Below, in pieces: positions 15,591-50,852 of a stretch of 64,000 bases of DNA. The notes under the pieces were generated by a model. The model saw nothing but the letters and a program-made list of their open reading frames with translations. It searched no databases and was not told where the DNA came from. The position numbers and the translations under genes were made by a program. Source of the stretch: Nymphaea colorata. Its lineage: Eukaryota > Streptophyta > Magnoliopsida > Nymphaeales > Nymphaeaceae. Position 1 is the stretch's first letter. Every line of letters starts with the position of its first letter. The stretch is taken from positions 14,860,354 to 14,924,353 of the forward strand of contig NC_045139.1 in the NCBI RefSeq assembly GCF_008831285.2, given 5' to 3'.

Positions 15591-15898
15591 GTTTTTTGTG
15601 TTCCGTTTGCGTCTGTTTTTTGTGTTCTATTTTCCAAGTGTTTCGTCGGACATATGCATCGACTGTTAGAAATATGCATCTCTGTTTGTGTTTGTGTTCC
15701 CTTTATTTGACCTCTTAATCAGAAAACGACGGCGACGGCAGGGCACATTTTATCGTTTCGTAATCATCTCTGCGTCTTCCCTAGTTATTGTTGTGATATA
15801 TCATTTCGCGAGAGGATTCGTCTATTTGGAATGATCCCCGTTTCTATTGGTTCTGTGTTGCAGCTCTTTTGCTAGGTGCTTTTCAAACATAAGTTGTA

Positions 15899-18140
15899 AT
15901 GGCTGATAAAAGAAAAGAAATGATGCCTACAGGAAGTGGAAATGTAGAAAGCAGCAGTGGTAATGTTAATACCGCTACAGTAGAGAAGGATAATCCATCT
16001 CAGCCTCTTTGGCGCTATGTGAAGAAACTATCAAAAGGACGAGGTGGTGGTGGGAATGTAATGTTTTCTTGCAAATTTTGTGATATGATGTTCATGGGCT
16101 CTTATACACGTTGCAAGGCACATTTTTTGCATATTTCTGGCGTTGGAATTAGACCATGCCCAAAAATTACCAACGAGGAGATTAAGATATTCAAAAAAGA
16201 ACAAGATGCAGCTGAGACGAAGAAATCTTCATCCAGATCAAGTGTGTCTGTTCCTCTGTATGCTACTGAAGGAGATGAAGATCCTTCAAAGAATAGAAAA
16301 ACATTAGCACAAGCATTCAATAATATGGGAAGGGCAGAGATGGATAGAATGATCGGAAGGATATTTTTTGCAAGTTCACTTCCTTTTAATGTAGCCAGAA
16401 GTCCTTATTGGAAAGATGTTGTTACAGGTTTGACTAATTCCAGTTTGAGTGGTTATGTACCCCCGAGTTCAGAGAAGTTAAGAACAGCAATTCTTGCAGA
16501 AAAGAAGGCAAACATTGAAAAATTATTAGAGAAGAAGAAATTTTCATGGATACAATATGGAGTATCCATTGTTTCTGACAGGTGGACTGATATACAAAGG
16601 CGGCCACTAATAAATTTTATTGCTTATTCGTTTGATGGACCAATCTTCTTGAAATGTGTTGATGCATCTGGAAAGTATAAAGATGTTGAGTATTTAAAAG
16701 GGCTATTTATAGAAGTCATCAAAGTGGGTGAAGATAATGTTGTGCAACTTATTACTGATAATGCTCCAGTTTGCCAACGAGTATGAATGAATTTGGCAAG
16801 TGATCCCAAGTATAGTCACATATTCTGGACTCCTTGTGTGGCACCCAGTATAAAATCTAGCACTTAAAGTATTTGCAACCCATCAAAAGATGATCCAAAT
16901 GCTGGTTTCTTGTGTTCATGGATTGAGGAGCTTCAGCATGATGTCAGAAACATCAGAAATTTTGTTGTAAACCACAACAATGCTCTTGCTATATTTAATA
17001 GGCATTCTGATTTGAAATTGTTGAAGGTAGCAGAGACTCGTTTGCATCCATTATCGTAATGATAAAAAGAATAAAGCAGGTGAAACATGCATTAACACTT
17101 ATGGTGACTGACAATGATTGGGAGTTTTATCAGAATGATGACATCGTGAAGGCTCAAGAAATTAAAAAATGCATTTTAGAAGATGAATGGTGGGATAAAG
17201 TTACATATTTTCTGCAGTTTACAGAGCCTATTTGGCAGATGCTGAGAGAAGTTGATAAAGAAGGGCCCATGCTTCATAAAGTTTATGATATGTGGGATAA
17301 CATGATTGAAAAAATTCAAAACATCATTTTTAGACATGAGAAGAAGCATGTTGCACTTAATGATTCTGAGTTTTTCGATCATGTGCATAGAATTTTAGTA
17401 AGAAGATGGAACAAAAGCAATAACCCTTTGCATTGTATGGCACACTCTTTAAATCCCAAATATTATGGACAAACATGGTTGGCAGGAGGTACTGGTCGTG
17501 TTCCTCCTAATCGAGATCCAGAAATATCAAAAAATAGGGAGATATGTTTGGGAAGACTGTATTATGATTTTTCATCGATAAAGATAATAAATAATGAGTT
17601 TGCGAGCTTCTCTGGTGGAAGAAATGATTCAATACAAGCTGCAATGGCAAGAGATGAAGAAGATCCTGTTAATTGGTGGTTGTGTTTTGGAGCATCGACA
17701 CCAAATCTCCAACAACTTGCGCTAAAGTTATTATCTCAACCTGCAACCTCTTCATGTTGTGAAAGAAATTGGAGCACTTGTTCTCAAATTCACATCAAGA
17801 GAAATAAGCTAACTAGTAAGCGAGCAGAAGATTTAGTTTATGTCCACTCCAACATACGTTTACTTTCACGTACTTCAAATGATTACAGGTATTTCTTTCT
17901 TTTTGTATCTTTGATATGTATGCATGATTTAGTTTATATCCACTCCAACCTCTTCATGTTGTAAAAGAAATTGTTGCAACTTGCAGTTCAGGATCATCCA
18001 AGTATTGGGATGTTAATCCAGAGGACATTGATCTGGAACTTGAAGGAGAACATGATTTGCATGCTTTTAACATGGACCTTACAGAACCTGTTGCTCCTTC
18101 TAATCTTCATGATGCGACTGAGGAGAATCAAGAAAGCTGA
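15899..18140 (+). pseudogene. hAT-like transposase (BED zinc finger, DUF659, hAT C-terminal domain), disrupted
   Basis: The first part (15899-16786, 295 residues) starts MADKRKEMM. A BED-type finger follows with CKFCDMMF and a downstream H-x4-H (near residues 60-85), then the DUF659 region with SIVSDRWTDIQRRPLINF and VVQLITDNA. A TGA at 16784 interrupts it. Homologous sequence continues (MNLASDPKYSHIFW), loses and regains frame around 16,850-16,880, and shifts again near 17,040 into the second part (17059-17888). That part ends with the hAT dimerisation signature SQPATSSCCERNWS and KRAEDLVYVHSNIRLL. A 98-base intron (17889-17986) links it to a last exon ending at the TGA 18138-18140. Stop plus frameshifts mean no full transposase, although most residues remain readable, so decay looks recent. 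Confidence 0.88.
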
Positions 18141-19240: not shown

Positions 19241-21820
19241 GTTTGTACATGTAGATAGAGACGCATGGAGGAGAAGCAACTATTAGAAAGCATGAATGCC
19301 AACCAAGATGCTTAACAGGAGCTTAAGCTTACTACTACAAAGTACAAACCCCATTTATTTACAACAAATGATTTTGAATTACAATGCATAGACGAACCAC
19401 CATCCTTAGAATTTTAACTCATGAATTGGACTTGGATCAGTCGATGACCAGGATGCTGGGTGAGCGAGTTGACTCAACGACTCGGCCAGGTCAGGTCATA
19501 AAATCTTTCTAGTGTATTTTTACTAAATAAAAGTTGAACATGTCTTCAAAAATAACAAGTAATGTAACATGGTTTATGAACATCAAACACCAACTAGTGA
19601 ATTATAATTACAACTTATAGATGACACAACTATGAAGTAACTACAACGATTACACATTAGGTTACAGCAACTCAAACACAGAACTCTGGTCAATTCTATA
19701 ATTCTATGCATTCTTTGTAGAAAAACCTTAATCCAAGATTTCAAATGTATCAAGGTACAAGGTGGACTATATTCTGCAACTCTATCTGTCTATCGAATCT
19801 ATAAGGACTAACAAATTCGGGTGAGAAATAGTACACAATTAGGACTGCTAGACATGCTTACTATTTGCAGTGGTAAGTTGAAAAATTATGTGTCACATGA
19901 GCAACTGTCGCTTCACAGGACAACTTGGACCCAACCTTCCTGAGCCCAGGACAACTGTCAGGGACTTAAGGGCAAGAGAGAGAGAGAGGCATCTAGTGAG
20001 CCCTTGATGGAATATCGAAAAGGCACAAAGAACATTTGGAATTGCCGGAGACCTCATCGCCAACGAAATGTTTTTGTAGGTGACAAAAGAGAGAGGGGGG
20101 GAGAGAGAGAGAGAGAGTTACCGGACAACGATGATGGTACATAGACTGCGGCACCGACGAATGGATGGCGTCGACGCTGGTGGATGGTCACCATTGGTGA
20201 CTGCCCTCAGTAAAACCCTTGGGGGGCGTTTGATGGATTGGAAACTTGGAGTGGGAAAGAAATTTCTGGAAATAAGTTTTCTAGAATAAAGGAATGGGAA
20301 AGATCTTTCCCATTCTCATTTTACTGTGTGTGTGATGACTAAGAAACAAATTTCCTTCAAACTTGTTTCTTAGTTTGTTGAGATTTGAAAAGCCTTGGAA
20401 GTGACCTTACGTTACCCATGCACAGACGACCTTACGTTGCTTGAACACACACACAACACCACCAAAGAGTAACAAAAAATGAACTAATTTGGCTTTCCTC
20501 ATGTGTTTTGGCCAACTCCTGAAATGAAAATGCCAACCTAGACTTTCTTGTTCTTACACGGAACATACAAAAAGAATCTTCCTAAAAGGGTGTTCTTATG
20601 GTCCACCGTTTGACAGTTTGACAAATGATTGGTGGGTGCAACATAATTCTCTGTTCCAAAACAGAGTGCTCTGTTTCACAAGATTACTATAGACAAGTTC
20701 CTAGGGTTCCTAAGTCTGATGCTGCCTCTTGGTAGTTGGTATACATGTCAGTTGCCGACATATGGAAGGCTGCTCCACTAAAATAGTTTAATTGTCTGCC
20801 CAAAGAGAAAATATGAGGTTTCTAGAGATGGCCTCTACCATGGACAATATGGTAAAAGAGAAATCAATCCTCACATGATATGATAGAAAATACTTTAATC
20901 AAGGAAATAAATCACCACAGGAAGCAGATGTTGATTGAAAATAAAAGAAAAAAATAATCATGCATACGTTACAGGTCATATACTTGCAGTAACAAGAGGC
21001 AACCAATGACAAAGATCAACAGTGGATGTCCATAATCTGTTTCTCATGGTATCAACAATTTGACATCAACAATACCTTCAGACAGAATCAGCTAGTAACG
21101 AAAGGCGCCTAAATTTTTAACTAACAGGAATAGTGCCTTCAGTAGATAAGAAAATCTTTCATATGCCAGGGAACTTGAACATTTAGCCTCTTGAAGTCCT
21201 AAACATTACACCATATAAATGTACACAGTTATGATTTCAAATATTTGAAAAGAGCCTTTCTACATGCTATAGAAAGTGGCCAACACCATAAAATCAATTA
21301 TGGGCTCTTAAAAACCTAGTAGAAAACAGAAAAAATAAAAAATAGCTGTCAATGTAACATAACGCACTAAAGAAATCACTCATTAAGCATAAACAATCAC
21401 TATAAACGAAACTACTTCAACCAACCCTGCAAAGAGACAACGTACAGTAAAAACATATGAAGTGGTTAGAGCTCTGACGCGCAGAGAAGCAAAACTGATC
21501 TAGAAGGAGATACGCAGGGAAGCAAAGAAAATAAGATTGAACAAGCATACGAAACAGGGAATGTGATAAACATATTCACAAAGCACCAAGCGTGAGAAAA
21601 TAAAAAACGGATCCCGTTTTTTTCTCTTTACGAGATAGACATCCATACATACCTACATCGTTTAAGACGAAGGTGAGTAGAGAAACCCATACAACAAAGG
21701 AGAAATCGTATAGAGGACAAATAAGACAGTAAATGGCGCAAATAAGACGATAAAAGGGGCCGGAAAAGAGTGACGAAGAAGAAAAAATAGATGACGAACA
21801 AGAAAGAGGGCGCAGATACA
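19241..21820. other. Intergenic or leader-intron DNA, no gene recognised
   Basis: AT-rich sequence with a GA run at about 20,095-20,117, a perfect 24-base palindrome at 20,292-20,315 and a 12-base inverted repeat at 20,338-20,374. The open frames here are short and resemble nothing I know. If the UTP10 transcript starts near 23.1 kb, this is its leader intron. Confidence 0.5.
20292..20374. repeat. Palindrome and hairpin cluster (possible MITE remnant)
   Basis: 20,292-20,315 is a perfect palindrome with half-site GAATGGGAAAGA. It is followed by the inverted pair ACTAAGAAACAA (20,338-20,349) and TTGTTTCTTAGT (20,363-20,374). A GGGGCGTTTGATGGATTGG motif at about 20,223 resembles the ends of small plant hAT-type elements, but no matching right end was found. 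Confidence 0.55.
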
Positions 21821-26797: not shown

Positions 26798-29031
26798 ATG
26801 GCCACATTGAAGGCTTTGGTTGTGCTCCTCTGTGTTCTCGCTCCTTACTTTGCATCCGCCTCCATTGATGGTAAGTGACATTCCATAACAATTTGTTATT
26901 GTTGTATGAATATGCTTTAAATTAGATCGATTTAAAAACATATAACATAATTTTTGAAACAGATTCACGAAACAACAATAAAATTGTTACCTGATGTTTT
27001 ACTCATGCAGGTCTTTTACCGAATGGCGACTTTGAGGAAAGACCAAAGTCGTCGCTGATGCGGGGGACTGAGGTGATGGGGCACGACTCGATCCCGCATT
27101 GGGAAACAGGTGGGTTCGTAGAGTACATAACCTCGGGGCAGAGACAGGGGGACATGCTGCTGCTGGTGCCGGAAGGCGGGCATGCGGTTCGGCTAGGAAA
27201 CAATGCCTACATAAAGCATAAGATGGGTGCCGTCAAGGGCCAGTCCTACTCCATCACGTTGACCGCATCCCGGACCTGCGCCCAGGCCGAGCAACTGTAT
27301 GTCTCCGTGCCGCCTGGCCACGGCATCCTTCCCATCCAGACCGTCTACAGCAGCAACGGCTGGGACTCTTACGCCTGGGCGTTCGTCGCACCCAGCGACG
27401 AGATCGAGGTCATCATCCACAACCCGGACTCTGAGGACGACAAGGCCTGCGGGCCTATCATAGATCGAGTCGCCATGAAGCAACTGGCCCCTCCAAGGGC
27501 TCGTAGAGGTATTTGCTTCAATAATTCCATTCACTTGGGCCACTTTGGTTGGGTTCTATACATTTCTCTATACAACTTCATAGCTAGGTCACAAGTTAGC
27601 CTAGTTTTTATTTATTTGAAATGTATTGCTCATTAACGAGATGTCGGTTGCTACTGCTAGTATGGCAAGTTATGATGATCAGCACAAAAACCTACAAAAA
27701 CGATAAATGAAACTGTGGGATTCAATGGGTTGGTTTCGGATTGGATATCCAACTTAAACGTTTCGAAAAAGTTGGAGTTGGCATTCAATTAAAAAACTGG
27801 ATCTGACTCAGATTTAATGAAACGACATCAGGTCGGATATCGCTTTAAACAAATATCTGGTTGGCTTTGGATTGAATTTCAGATAAATTTTAAAACCCGA
27901 ATTCCAAACATATCATAATGCGGTTTCCATTCACTTGTACGTTTGAAAATTGGATGTGGTTGATGTAAAAATAAAAATTTGGATTCAGATGTGAATTCAA
28001 AAAATAGATTTGAATATGGTATGCTTTTTTTCTTTGATTCATATTTAAATTCAAATATGCAAACATCCTATAAATCGGATACACTAAAGGAATACATATA
28101 TATATATATAAACATCACAGCTAACTAAGCCTGGCCATGTGATGTGGACGGTCTCGAGAATCTAGTACATATTAGGTCATGATCAAAAAAATTTTTTATA
28201 GATTAAAAATTGTAAATTCAGGTCCTTCAAATCTCGTGCCAGACAATTGTGACTGTCTCTACCATGTGACACAGTAAATGAGTTCTTTGGAACTCTATAT
28301 CGAATGAGATTCTGGAATAACTGGCTCTTTGTCTAATGGAATTTGTTAACCATGAGTACTTTAGAACTTGGATCCAGGTCCATAAGGATTGGATCCACTG
28401 AAGTGAAGGTGGTACAGATCATAGTGTTGGAAACGGATTTGTGCTTATAGCGTCTGGATTAGATCTTGTTAACGCGAGTATGATCAATGTGCCAGGCAAC
28501 TTGCTCAAGAACGGAGGTTTCGAAGAGGGTCCCTACTACTTCTCCAACTCTTCAGAGGGGGTGCTGATTCCGCCCATGGCCGACGATGACCACTCGGCGG
28601 TGCCGGGCTGGGCAGTCAAGTCCCTCAAGTCCATAAGGTACATTGACTCGGACCATTACACCGTGCCGGAAGGCCGGCGAGCTGTGGAGCTGCTGGCCGG
28701 AAAAGAGGGCGTGCTGGTGCAGCAAGCCAAGACAGTGCCGGGCAGCTTGTATGTTCTGAGTTTCATGGTGGGAGACGCAAACAACGAGTGCAAGGGCTCC
28801 ATGGTCGTGGAGGCATATGCAGGCTCGGCTTCCACGAAGGTGCCCTATGAGTCATCTGGGCGAGGTGGGTCCAAGCGAGCCATGCTCAAGTTCGTGGCCA
28901 AGTCTCGTTTGACCAATGTGGTCTTCTTTAGCTCATTTTATAGCACTAGGAGCAGCGACATGAGCACATTGTGCGGGCCGGTGCTCGACGAGGTCAAGCT
29001 AATCAGGGTGAGGCGAAAGCCGAGGGCGTGA
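26798..29031 (+). CDS. DUF642 cell-wall protein (BIIDXI-like)
   Basis: Three exons, 26798-26870, 27011-27508 and 28496-29031, join in agreeing phase to give 368 residues, the usual length of the plant DUF642 family. Residues 1-22 (MATLKALVVLLCVLAPYFAS) form a clear secretion signal. The first galactose-binding-like domain begins LLPNGDFEE and ends near CGPIIDRVAMKQL. The second begins NLLKNGGFEEGP, contains AVPGWAVKSLKSIRYIDSDH and VPEGRRAVELLAGKEG, and ends CGPVLDEVKLI. These are the diagnostic family motifs and include the paired cysteines (RTC...KAC and NEC...TLC). Known members are extracellular and bind or influence pectin methylesterases in the wall. The exons are GC-rich against AT-rich introns. 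The acceptor before exon 3 has a weak pyrimidine tract but fits frame and homology. Confidence 0.93.
27509..28495 (+). other. Second intron of the DUF642 gene with degenerate repeats
   Basis: It starts GTATTTGC and ends CCAG. About 27,700-28,080 carries words such as GGATATCCAA and CGGATATC, resembling the repeat-like stretch at 24,120-24,420. No coding segment was found in it. Confidence 0.6.
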
Positions 29032-42200: not shown

Positions 42201-43621
42201 CATTTATTCAGTGGTCTCAGTAGTAAATAGCATGATGACTGTTGTTGGAAGTTTAATACTTGGAAGGGGCTTTAGTTGGTGTCTTCTGGAATTGCCCAGA
42301 AGATTTTCTTGAAACAACTTTTTTTGTACAAGCCTCATGGTAGGAGAAAGTAAGTTGGATGATACATGGAGAAGTTAGTCGTGCTTAAAGATGGGGAAAT
42401 CCAGTTTTTCTTAAATGCAGTTGTCCAACCGAGCTACACTTCATGTCTGGAGATGGCAATTTGTCAGGTTGTGAAAATTAAACGGTAGTGATAGTTGGAA
42501 TTCCTATTGTCCTGAAAGAGCAATTGACTAATGAAAAATTGCTTAACAAATTATTGTAAATTGCATCTAAACGTGATGTTAAAGAGGGTGAAATGCTAAG
42601 GGGGACTGCCTGGTTGTGAAAGTGAATGGTGCTTATTACGCTAGTAATCATTGGTATTTGTATTCCCTGGAAGAGCAATTGACTAATACAAAATTGCTTG
42701 ACAAATTACTTTAAATTGCGTCTAAACTGTGAGGTTAAACAGCTAAAAAGAGTGAAAGGCTAAGGGACTGCTTCCCCAAAGGATTGGTTTCGCGCACCTG
42801 GCTTTGGATGTCAGGAAAGCAATTACTGTTTACTATGATACTAGCCTGAAGGTTTTATGCTGGTGGAGTGCAACCAGTCTCATGTCCCATGAACAGTTTC
42901 TTGGTGTAAGAAACAAATAGAAAAGAAAAAAGAGAGACTGCCTTGCAAGGAACGTTCTTAAACCCAGGAACTATTCTTCAAAGGGTAAGGAGGATGTTGG
43001 AGCCCCTGCTATGATTTAGGCATGGCATTGCTTAGTACATCCAGCTAGGGCGTTTCAATATTTCGAGTGACCTTTGCCCGCCCTTGTATAGTTGTATATC
43101 CACTTCGTAAGTTCTGCTGGGGTTCCTCATTGTGGGAAAAGAAAATTTACTTGGAGCTAGGATCTCTGTTAAAGTAATGGTTCATGTTGCACAAAGCTGA
43201 TTATAGAAACTGAATATGTGCATGTTTTAGATTAACTCCTTGAGGTTCGTGAGTTAATTTGATTTATGATGATGCATGGGTGGGCTTTTCTCAATTTTCA
43301 ACTGATTTCCTTTATTGTAAACAGTTTCCAGTTGGACGCATACACCGGTTGCTGAAGTCCCGTATTGCTGCAAATGGAAGAGTTGGTGCTACAGCCGCTG
43401 TGTATTCAGCAGCTATTTTGGAGTATCTAACTGCTGAGGTGCTGGAGTTGGCAGGCAATGCTAGCAAAGATCTGAAAGTGAAGCGGATAACTCCTAGGCA
43501 TCTTCAGCTTGCTATCCGAGGAGATGAAGAGCTTGATACCTTGATAAAGGGCACCATTGCTGGAGGTGGTGTGATCCCCCATATTCATAAGTCACTGATT
43601 AACAAGTCCTCCAAAGATTGA
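39203..43621 (+). CDS. H2A.Z: Histone H2A.Z variant
   Basis: Exon 1 (39203-39310, 36 codons) reads [20 protein letters not shown]...RSSRAGLQ. Exon 2 (43325-43621) resumes [20 protein letters not shown] and ends INKSSKD, for 134 residues in total, the usual length of plant H2A.Z. Diagnostic features are the extended acidic-patch stretch [20 protein letters not shown], the docking region and the short C-terminus without the SQEF phosphorylation motif of H2A.X. The protein replaces H2A in nucleosomes (deposited by the SWR1 complex) and marks gene 5' ends and responsive genes. The single coding intron is 4,014 bases and carries several small repeats. The exon sequence appears intact, with no broken residues. 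Confidence 0.97.
40634..40776. mobile_element. Probable MITE in the H2A.Z intron
   Basis: The left end (about 40,634-40,675) and the reverse complement of the right end (about 40,737-40,776) both read CTCACGTT, then a T-rich spacer, then ACCATGGATTT. This makes imperfect inverted repeats of about 35-40 bases enclosing about 60 bases. The target duplication is unclear and no protein is encoded. Confidence 0.6.
41158..41735 (+). repeat. Duplicated ~135-bp segment, copies 445 bp apart
   Basis: Copy 1 at about 41,160-41,300 and copy 2 at about 41,605-41,735 share CAAT..GCTGGTGCTTAAAA, CTGAGTCCA, AGTCAAAGGT-like and TTTTGAGAGTAAAT. The intervening DNA includes AATCTCGTGATAT repeats, possibly a small insertion that split a tandem duplication. 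Confidence 0.6.
42500..42775 (+). repeat. Tandem duplication, period ~155 bp
   Basis: GAGCAATTGACTAAT is followed by AAATTGCTT(A/G)ACAAATTA and AAATTGC(A/G)TCTAAAC at 42,518 and again at 42,673. The copies are diverged, so the duplication is old. Confidence 0.75.
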
Positions 43622-46408: not shown

Positions 46409-48828
46409 ATGGCGCAAACAATCCACGCTCTCATACCGTCCTCTTCCACATGTCTCCACCGTCGCTCCACCGCCGCCACCATTACTTCCATCCCTAAATC
46501 GAAGTCATTCGTAGTCCTTTCCCAATCCCCTTGCTTCTCCCGTGGCCGCCCCTCTCGGAGCTCTATCTCGGCCGTCTACGAGTTGGATAGCTCCCCGGCG
46601 GCAGTCTCCAACGGGCGGGGACCAGCGGTGGCGGTGGATACGTCGTCTGCCGTCATCGAGATAGACGCCGTGAGCGAGGCGGAGCTGAAGGAGAATGGGT
46701 TCCGGTGCACTCGTCGGACTAAGCTCGTCTGCACCGTTGGGCCTGCGACGAACGGGTTTTCACAGATAGAGGCGCTGGCCATGGGTGGGATGAACGTCGC
46801 ACGCATTAATATGTGCCACGGCACCCGGGAGTGGCACAGAGATGTGATTCGGAAGGTGAGGAAGCTCAACGACGAGAAAGGATACGCAGTCGCCATCATG
46901 ATGGACACAGAGGGAAGTGAGATCCACATGGGCGATCTCGGCGGTTCCTCGTCTGCTAAGGCGGAGGTTGGAGACTCTCTTTCTCTTCTTCTGTGATTCC
47001 GATTCCCTGCTTCTATTTCATCGTGTTGTTCTTTCTTTGGCTGTTATTATTCTTTTCCTTTTTCTTCTTTTTCTTCCTGCTACTGATCTTTTTGTGCTTT
47101 AGTGTACTTCAATCACATTATCAGGTTTCACTTTCCGGAAATCTTCTGAATTAAAATTCTTGGTGCTTTAATTTTGTTACTTGGTGATTTAGTTTCTTCA
47201 TGTTTTATTTCGTAAAATTATGGTAAGATATAAAAGATACAAAGCAGAAAAACTGTTTATCATACTAATGTTGTAATAAAAGTATGTCATAATATCATAA
47301 TTTAAAGAAACAAAGAAGATGATGGGCACGACTGGTAAGTTACAACAAAAAATATATAGGTTTTGAGCAATAGTCGATGAATTGAAACGTGGAATGAAGA
47401 GATGCTAATATATGATAGATTTACATGGCTGTGAAGAGTCATGACCCACCAGAGTCTACGTCAAGAACTAGGAATGAAATTGTCATGTCAAATCATTAAG
47501 CATATTAGCATCATGGCCATGCCGACGGCCATGAGATCAGACACATTTTACATTAGCATTACCTGGATGGCATTGCTTAGATGGATAGATGAACCTCTCG
47601 GTAATACAAGAGGTCGAAATGAACCTTAGAATAAGAAGCAGCATTGGCTACAAGTAGCTCGCATCTGACACAAAATGTCATGTAAGTTTTTCATTTATGT
47701 TAGACCACATATTTAACAAGGTGAAATGCATGGTGTACCTTGACCTTCACTAACATAAAATTCCTTGTGGGATGGATAATATAAGTTTCAGTTTCCTCAA
47801 ATGTATATGCTATACTTTTATACTGCTGCAGAATACATTTATCACTCGACTTTGTGGCTGAATGCCATGACAATATGGGGTTGGAATCACAGAAAATGTA
47901 TTTCCTTTCTTTTTGCCTATTTTGGTTTTAATGTCTGAATACCTAAATGGTTTTGTAGGATGGTGAAATTTGGACTTTCAGTGTCCGAGCTTTTACATTA
48001 CCTCTTCCAGCACGCACCATTAGTGTTAACTATGATGGCTTTGCTGAAGGTCTGATTCTTCATTCTCATTCTTAGTGAAGACATATTAACTTCTTTATCT
48101 CCCCTTGAGCAATTTGCTATATTCGTCTTTCATGTAGATGTGAAGGTGGGAGATGAGCTTCTTGTGGATGGAGGAATGGTGCGGTTTGATGTGATTGAGA
48201 AGATTGGTCCAGATGTGATATGTCGTTGCACAGATCCTGGTCTGCTGCTACCTCGTGCTAATCTGACATTAAGGAGGGACGGTAGCCTTGTTCGTGAAAA
48301 GAATGCAATGCTTCCAACTATTTCTTCCAAGGTTTTACTTGTTTGATGCCTCATCTTGTTGTCCTATTCTGAAATGTCCAAATTTCTGTGCAAATAACAT
48401 TAATCTTCTGAAAGAATCCAATGCCACATAGTTGTTGAAATGGGACCCGTACGATAGTATAATTTCATTCTTCATTCAGCTTAGTTTTAGGATTGATTTT
48501 TCTATTGCTCCCCTTTTCTCTCCTTAGGGGTCTTCTGGTTGTGACCTAAGGTTTTGCTTTTCTCCAGTTTCCTTTTTTAGAAAAAATGTTGTCACTAATT
48601 TGATTACTATGAAGTGTTGCAAAATTTTTTTGCATTGTCAAGTTTTTGCTAAAAGAGTTATTTTTTGCTTAAAGAAAGACACATGAATTTGGCCAGCAAT
48701 GAATGGTGTCCTTGGGAGTTCGCTGCTAAATTGTTTTAATTTGATCAAAGGTCAAGAAATTTTCAGGAAAGACTGGTAAAGGAAAAGTATATTTACCACA
48801 CTGATAGGCATATATATAAATTTAAAAC

Positions 48829-48873
<45 letters not shown>

Positions 48874-50852
48874 TTTATAGATCTTTAATATGAAGTCAGT
48901 GATTCTCTGCCCCTGCAGGATTGGCTTGATATTGATTTTGGTATTGCTGAGGGTGTAGACTTCATTGCGATCTCGTTTGTCAAGTCAGCTGAAGTAATAC
49001 ATCATCTGAAGAGCTATATTTCTGCTCGAACTCGTGGCAGGTGCAGAAAAGATGCCTTTTCTGTTATCAGTTTCAATAAAAGCCTTTTTGACATCAGTTG
49101 TTAACCATATCTTTCATCTCTTTATTGGGATGGAGGATGGCTTATTTTAATGAAAGAAATTTGTTTAAATAAATAATTTGCATTTATAAAGATCATGTTG
49201 ACCATTTACTACAGCTGCTAAATTGTGATGAATTCTACAGTGATATTGCAGTAATTGCAAAAATTGAAAGTATTGACTCATTGAACAATCTCAAAGAGAT
49301 CATTCGTGCATCTGACGGGGCCATGGTTGCTAGAGGTGATCTTGGTGCGCAAATTCCATTGGAAGAAGTGCCTTCAGCACAACAGGAGATAGTAAGATTA
49401 TGTAGGCAGCTCAACAGGCCTGTGATTGTTGCATCACAACTTCTTGAGTCCATGATTGAGTACCCTACACCCACAAGGGCTGAAGTTGCAGATGTTTCTG
49501 AAGCAGTGAGACAGCGAGCAGATGCTCTCATGCTCTCATGCTCTCAGGAGAGTCAGCTATGGGCCAATATCCTGAGAAAGCTCTAGCTGTGTTGAAAAGT
49601 GTGAGTCTTCGAATGGAGAGGTGGTGGAGAGAGGACAAACGCCATGAAGCGTCAAATCTTTCTGATATTTCATCTTCCTTTAGTGATCAGATCTCAGAGA
49701 CAATCTGCAATTCTGCTGCTAGAATGGGTGAGCATTTTGATTTTAATTCTGTCACCCTTGACATAACCTGGTTCCTTTCTTTGTCTGTTCAGGCTGTTGT
49801 TGTCAGTTTTGAGGGGTGAACCCTCTAGGCTCCAAATGTCGTACTACTTGCTTTACTTTGAATTATGACAACTTGGCTGTGGATATTATATTTTTGTTTC
49901 TCTGCATGTATCTGAGATGTTTCTACAAGGTGGTGTGATATGCACTTGTATGTCCATGTCCCATTTTGGATGCTGGCTACCCTCCTTAATCTCAATCTAA
50001 GCATAAAACTTTGTTTTCCATTAAGTTGGATGTTGTTAATTTGAATTAGTAAATGATTATTTCAACTAGGTGGAGTGTTTGTCAATTCATGTATATCACA
50101 TGCCTTTGCATTCTACTACGTATATTTAGCCACATCCCAGTTTTAACACAGTCTGATGCAAATGCTTTATAAATTTACGGATACTAGTTTCCCCATTGTT
50201 GGGAAGCGGACACAAGCACTGAGTACATGATTTCAACAATTTAACATTACTTTCTTGCTCTCCACTCTTTTAAGTTCCTGTGGAGTGCAAGGTAGAACTA
50301 AAGATGATCCAGATATTCTCTGCAAGGGAACTATTGTTACGATAAATATTTATTTGACTCGAATATTTTGAATGTTTCTGGTACTAAAATCTGGAAATCA
50401 GCTATATCTTTTTAGTAGCTAAAAATTGCATATTGGCAAAAACACTTGAATTTGTATTTGTTTTTGTTGGCTCTCTTTTATATGTGCAAGAACTAGGCAT
50501 AATAAAATTTGGGTTGGTAAATAATGGTGGTGGTGTTTGATGATATGCAGCAAACAGCCTGGAAGTGGATGCCATTTTTGTGTATACAAGAACAGGTGGT
50601 ATGGCTTCTCTTTTGTCACGATGCCGCCCTGATTGCCCCATTTTTGCCTTCACAACAACAACCTCTGTGCGTCGTCGACTAAATCTGCAATGGGGACTGA
50701 TACCCTTTAGGCTAAGTTTCTCTGATGACATGGAGAGCAATCTCAACAGGACATTCTCATTATTGAAAGCCAGGGGAATGATACAATCAGGAGACCTAGT
50801 AATTGCCGTCTCTGATATGTTGCAGTCTATTCAGGTGATCAATGTACCTTAA
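46409..50852 (+). CDS. PKP1: Plastid pyruvate kinase alpha subunit, frameshifted in exon 5
   Basis: Six exons: 46409-46966, 47959-48049, 48138-48331, 48919-49040, 49241-49727 and 50551-50852. Residues 1-60 are rich in Ser, Thr and Arg, as in a plastid transit peptide. The catalytic barrel shows [53 protein letters not shown] and [20 protein letters not shown]. The C-terminal domain ends [13 protein letters not shown], like the known plastid alpha subunit. The enzyme makes pyruvate and ATP from phosphoenolpyruvate for plastid fatty-acid synthesis, in complex with beta subunits. All splice phases agree only if 8 bases in exon 5 are discounted: TGCTCTCA occurs three times at 49,524-49,547, where the conserved protein requires two copies. 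Read literally, the frame ends at a TAG at 49,584-49,586 after about 436 residues instead of 581. The rest is intact, so this is either a recent null allele or a sequence error. Confidence 0.93.
48832..48869. repeat. (AT)n microsatellite in a PKP1 intron
   Basis: A 38-base AT run in the third intron, about 50 bases before exon 48919-49040. Confidence 0.95.
49524..49547 (+). repeat. Triplicated 8-bp unit TGCTCTCA in PKP1 exon 5
   Basis: Three exact tandem copies. Two copies encode the conserved [10 protein letters not shown] stretch, and the third shifts the frame. Copy-number slippage of a short unit is the natural explanation. Confidence 0.95.

Follow-up and report, generated by a model that had tools for sequence, protein, structure and literature searches.

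Plastid pyruvate kinase is described as a heteromer whose alpha and beta subunits must act together (PMC13409958). According to the same source, loss of the beta1 subunit in Arabidopsis leads to sharply lower plastid pyruvate kinase activity, and a rice mutant with low expression of the alpha gene has floury grain and an aleurone that contains fewer oil bodies (PMC13409958; rice paper PMC6181219).

Here we describe a gene of this kind in Nymphaea colorata, contained in the 64-kb window (the whole stretch of DNA that was analysed). It resembles PKP1 of Arabidopsis and OsPK2/PKpalpha1 of rice in that barrel and C-terminal domains are encoded, together with a long N-terminal extension. Unlike these plastid alpha genes, however, its product is cut after 421 native residues. 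Among the open-access papers listed, no publication on this locus was found.

A triplicated unit in exon 5

The exons of the window gene were defined against a second such gene, located on the minus strand at C1:22286632-22292951, which carries an open frame of 579 aa and shares the same six-exon plan. On the plus strand of the window, exon 1 (46409-46966) is an open frame holding about 100 residues N-terminal to the barrel domain, a putative transit-peptide-like segment ahead of PF00224, which starts at residue 102. It is followed by exons 2 (47959-48049), 3 (48138-48331) and 4 (48919-49040), all plus-strand and with AG/GT borders, by exon 5 (49241-49727, plus), and by exon 6 (50551-50852, plus), which is intact through the original stop and shares the coding of the PK_C domain with the last part of exon 5. 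All five introns are GT...AG, the exon-1 donor being GTTGGA in the window copy and GTATGA in the C1 copy. Apart from the repeat described below, the six exons are open and no second disabling coding change is present, in agreement with the initial annotation, which had taken the gene to be otherwise intact.

At 487 nt, exon 5 is longer than its C1 counterpart (479 nt) and contains one extra unit of a perfect 8-base tandem, TGCTCTCA x3, at 49523-49546 on the plus strand. The 8-bp triplication had been recognized before, and its three perfect units are indeed present, although the coordinates then assigned to it (49524..49547) are one base too high. Tandem Repeats Finder reports the array at 49522-49546, with period 8, 3.1 copies and 100% matches. 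Counting units of 7-12 bases other than those that are themselves runs of 1-3-base repeats, it is the sole perfect array of at least three copies in the window, and no comparable array appeared in 60 order-1 Markov simulations of this stretch; a chance origin was rejected on these two grounds. One occurrence of the exact 24-mer was found in the 407.8-Mb assembly (407,766,735 bases in 783 contigs). Moreover, a DNA search of the assembly with the 401 bases around the repeat matched at the window locus and on C1 only, by which a haplotig or a further locus with the same exon was discarded.

The array falls in a conserved stretch. Solved pyruvate kinases align through it, the 15-residue segment of the C1 protein lying opposite DAVMLSGETAAGQYP in 2e28. 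Among the 6912 codings of DALMLSG, 48 contain a perfect 2x8-base tandem, and the coding in the window copy is one of these. The C1 copy carries one perfect unit followed by one diverged unit across the corresponding conserved ALMLSGESA residues.

In the shifted frame a TAG stop is reached at 49584-49586 (plus strand), exactly where the initial annotation had placed it, 141 nt upstream of the exon 5/6 junction. The product comprises 436 aa, 421 of them native and 15 shifted, whereas 581 aa are expected without one unit; 160 native C-terminal residues are lost, close to the quarter of the protein first estimated. PF00224 (barrel) matches the shifted product with 279.7 bits (cut-off 30) over profile positions 2-316 of 328, while in the C1 copy the match covers 2-327 of 328, so that the window product is without the last barrel positions. 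The Pfam profile search found no PF02887 (PK_C) in the 436-aa shifted product, although this domain scores 91.9 bits in the downstream window piece read separately and 92 bits in the C1 copy. The gene belongs to the pyruvate kinase family, and its shifted product is not a complete member. Transcripts carrying a stop at such a distance before the last exon junction are usually degraded by nonsense-mediated decay.

The window also contains a gene resembling hAT transposases, divided into two long open pieces (15893-17961; DUF659 and hAT dimerisation domain), a gene for a DUF642 protein in two open stretches (26995-29028) and, upstream of the kinase, a histone H2A gene exon (43253-43618), presumably of the H2A.Z kind.

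The second copy and the origin of the pair

The extra unit had been considered striking on the premise of a single PKP1 gene in the species. This premise fails, since the assembly holds a second gene, intact in sequence, on another large contig: the search of the genome for a further PKP1 copy, initially proposed as a check, was run and led to the C1 gene. The window and C1 proteins are identical at 349/412 positions (84.7%) before the repeat and at 146/160 (91.2%) after it.

When the whole genome was searched with PF00224, 29 matches were obtained, each exon being counted separately; they lie at C1:22.29, C2 (window), C3:24.16, C9, C1:35.18, C12, C13, C1:13.19, C11, C1:1.55, C6 and C462. Among these loci, of which the others are known as pieces, the C1:22.29 copy is the closest relative of the window copy. 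The C3 gene is a more distant one, its pieces being 41-66% identical to the C1 protein; the corresponding figures are 28-76% for the C12 and C13 pieces (76% over 21 residues only) and 27-41% for those of C1:35.18 and C9. We provisionally take the window gene to be of the alpha (PKP1) type, and the beta and cytosolic names are assumed in the same manner.

Two of the remaining loci deserve a separate mention. At C6:22733927-22734043, a partial copy resembling exon 1 of the PKP1-related C3 gene occurs in two pieces in different frames, and looks like a broken duplicate. The 22,069-base contig C462 harbors a fragmented pyruvate kinase (L025:300-2100) in which a conserved piece contains one in-frame TAG that can be read as glutamine in the ciliate code (TYDQYDIVEFG), and this contig may be a contaminant of ciliate-like origin. 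The remaining recoded codons lie in stretches with no kinase match, and the frame changes could be short introns.

The published N. colorata assembly amounts to 409 Mb and 804 scaffolds, of which 770 were assigned to 14 pseudo-chromosomes; its paralogues are reported to show a KS peak of about 0.9, obtained with codeml and hence by a method different from the Nei-Gojobori dS used here (PMC7015852). The dS between window and C1 copies (0.901 before the repeat and 1.045 after it) is close to this duplication peak, and from these values the pair is most likely a product of the Nymphaealean whole-genome duplication. The gene neighbourhood may point the other way, though the range is short: when the 1649 reading frames of the window were compared with 149,901 bases around the C1 copy, the kinase region matched, together with one 23-residue match at window positions 20284-20406, and no common neighbours were found, which counts against such an origin.

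Age of the disabling change and competing explanations

Before the repeat, dN/dS between the two copies is 0.092 for the whole part and 0.051 when the N-terminal 95 alignment columns are set aside (mature part); after the repeat it is 0.044. Both copies would seem, from these ratios, to have been held under strong purifying selection since the duplication. A three-way comparison using the C3 gene as outgroup covered 469 sites, 319 of them before the repeat and 150 after it, and 41 of the 469 differ; 18 of these differences could be polarised, the other 23 being different in all three sequences. The polarised amino-acid changes number 9 in the window copy (8 before and 1 after the repeat) and 9 in the C1 copy (7 and 2). 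Taking C13, C12, C1:35.18 and C9 as outgroups, the window copy shows 4, 6, 3 and 2 changes, respectively, against 9, 8, 6 and 5 in the C1 copy. Expressed as age, the 95% limit on extra changes amounts to 2.6-3.1% of the post-duplication branch, and the lack of any other disabling change to 1.8-3.6% of it under assumed rates, both being crude bounds. What is found is a single disabling change in an otherwise constrained gene, as in a recent null allele; if real, the null would be young, with an origin in roughly the final 3% of the period that followed the duplication.

A recent null, a slippage polymorphism and an assembly error all remain candidate readings. We consider it probable that slippage recently turned the window gene, one of two old duplicate alpha-like genes for plastid pyruvate kinase, into a null, whether fixed or still segregating. 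An error of assembly or polishing, by which the plant would have two units and an intact gene, would equally leave the rest of the gene undecayed, with a dN/dS of 0.044 even past the break. Still, the 24-base array, with its perfect extra 8-base unit, is far shorter than a read, and the errors left over in such long-read assemblies are mostly 1-base indels. The N. colorata assembly is described as built with Canu from PacBio RSII reads and polished by Arrow and Pilon, a procedure that leaves room for such an error, but long reads at about 120-fold coverage (49.8 Gb for 409 Mb) and polishing with short reads are reported as well (PMC7015852). On balance an error is rather unlikely, and the case resembles an ordinary loss of a spare gene that took place very recently.

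It is very improbable that a working enzyme is still made through alternative splicing or frameshifting past the extra unit. On paper, 104 frame-keeping GT...AG pairs of at least 60 nt span the repeat within exon 5, but even the shortest cuts out 68 nt around the conserved ALMLSGESA stretch, and skipping of the 487-nt exon 5 breaks the frame with exon 6; a rescue of this sort, whether through skipping of the exon or through a cryptic intron, was rejected on exon lengths and on this minimal loss of 68 nt of conserved region. Finally, that the gene is an old pseudogene is hardly tenable at all, since against its premature stop stand the lack of a second disabling coding change, the low dN/dS on both sides and the lack of any excess of polarised amino-acid changes, so that this candidate was rejected, the crude age bounds and the undecayed coding sequence being clearly against it.

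A probable recent loss of one of two old duplicates

Returning to a recent slippage null, and starting from what is directly observed (repeat, frame, stop, a second copy intact in sequence, rates), the following succession of events can be proposed. Two alpha-like plastid pyruvate kinase copies would first have arisen by an old duplication, which was most likely the Nymphaealean whole-genome duplication. Codon choice would then have left the conserved ALMLSG stretch of the window copy with a perfect 2x8-base tandem. The two-unit state would be the earlier one, on which replication slippage, as the simplest account, would have added the third unit. The frame would then shift after 421 native residues and meet a stop 15 residues on, with loss of the barrel end and of the whole C-terminal domain, and the window transcript should undergo nonsense-mediated decay. 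A null this young would be tolerated because the C1 copy is intact in sequence. The initial interpretation is retained as regards a frameshift that is the only defect of the gene and, if real, very recent; the idea of a single PKP1 gene is abandoned. More tentatively, it is possible that one slippage event has only now disabled a duplicate that had been under strong constraint ever since an ancient whole-genome duplication. The loss would then be caught as it happens, perhaps with the allele still segregating among water-lily individuals, and the dosage need that had kept both copies would have lapsed very recently.

The argument from seed-oil synthesis, which the enzyme feeds, is weakened, though not removed. 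The C1 copy is intact in sequence, and the seeds of Nymphaeales are described as storing their reserves mainly in the perisperm, high in starch and carbohydrate (PMC12619087). Alpha and beta subunits depend on each other (PMC13409958). With the C1 copy in place, a null in the window copy may have little effect. If the extra unit is present in the plant, the locus documents how a long-retained duplicate begins to be lost, with a date for this first step and simple slippage as its cause; in the case of an assembly error, the gene model at this locus needs correction. Either way, the plant would be expected to retain an alpha-type plastid pyruvate kinase from the C1 copy.

The extra unit, if real, also shows that the conserved ALMLSG stretch can become a slippage site through codon choice. 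The gain of a perfect whole unit in a short tandem is the same as in known frameshifts caused by slippage of short tandem repeats in coding DNA, from which the present case differs in locus only. Likewise, the finding of one copy intact and the other disabled is shared with fractionation after whole-genome duplication. In contrast to usual fractionation, however, the loss in the window, if real, would have come very late, after long retention under strong constraint.
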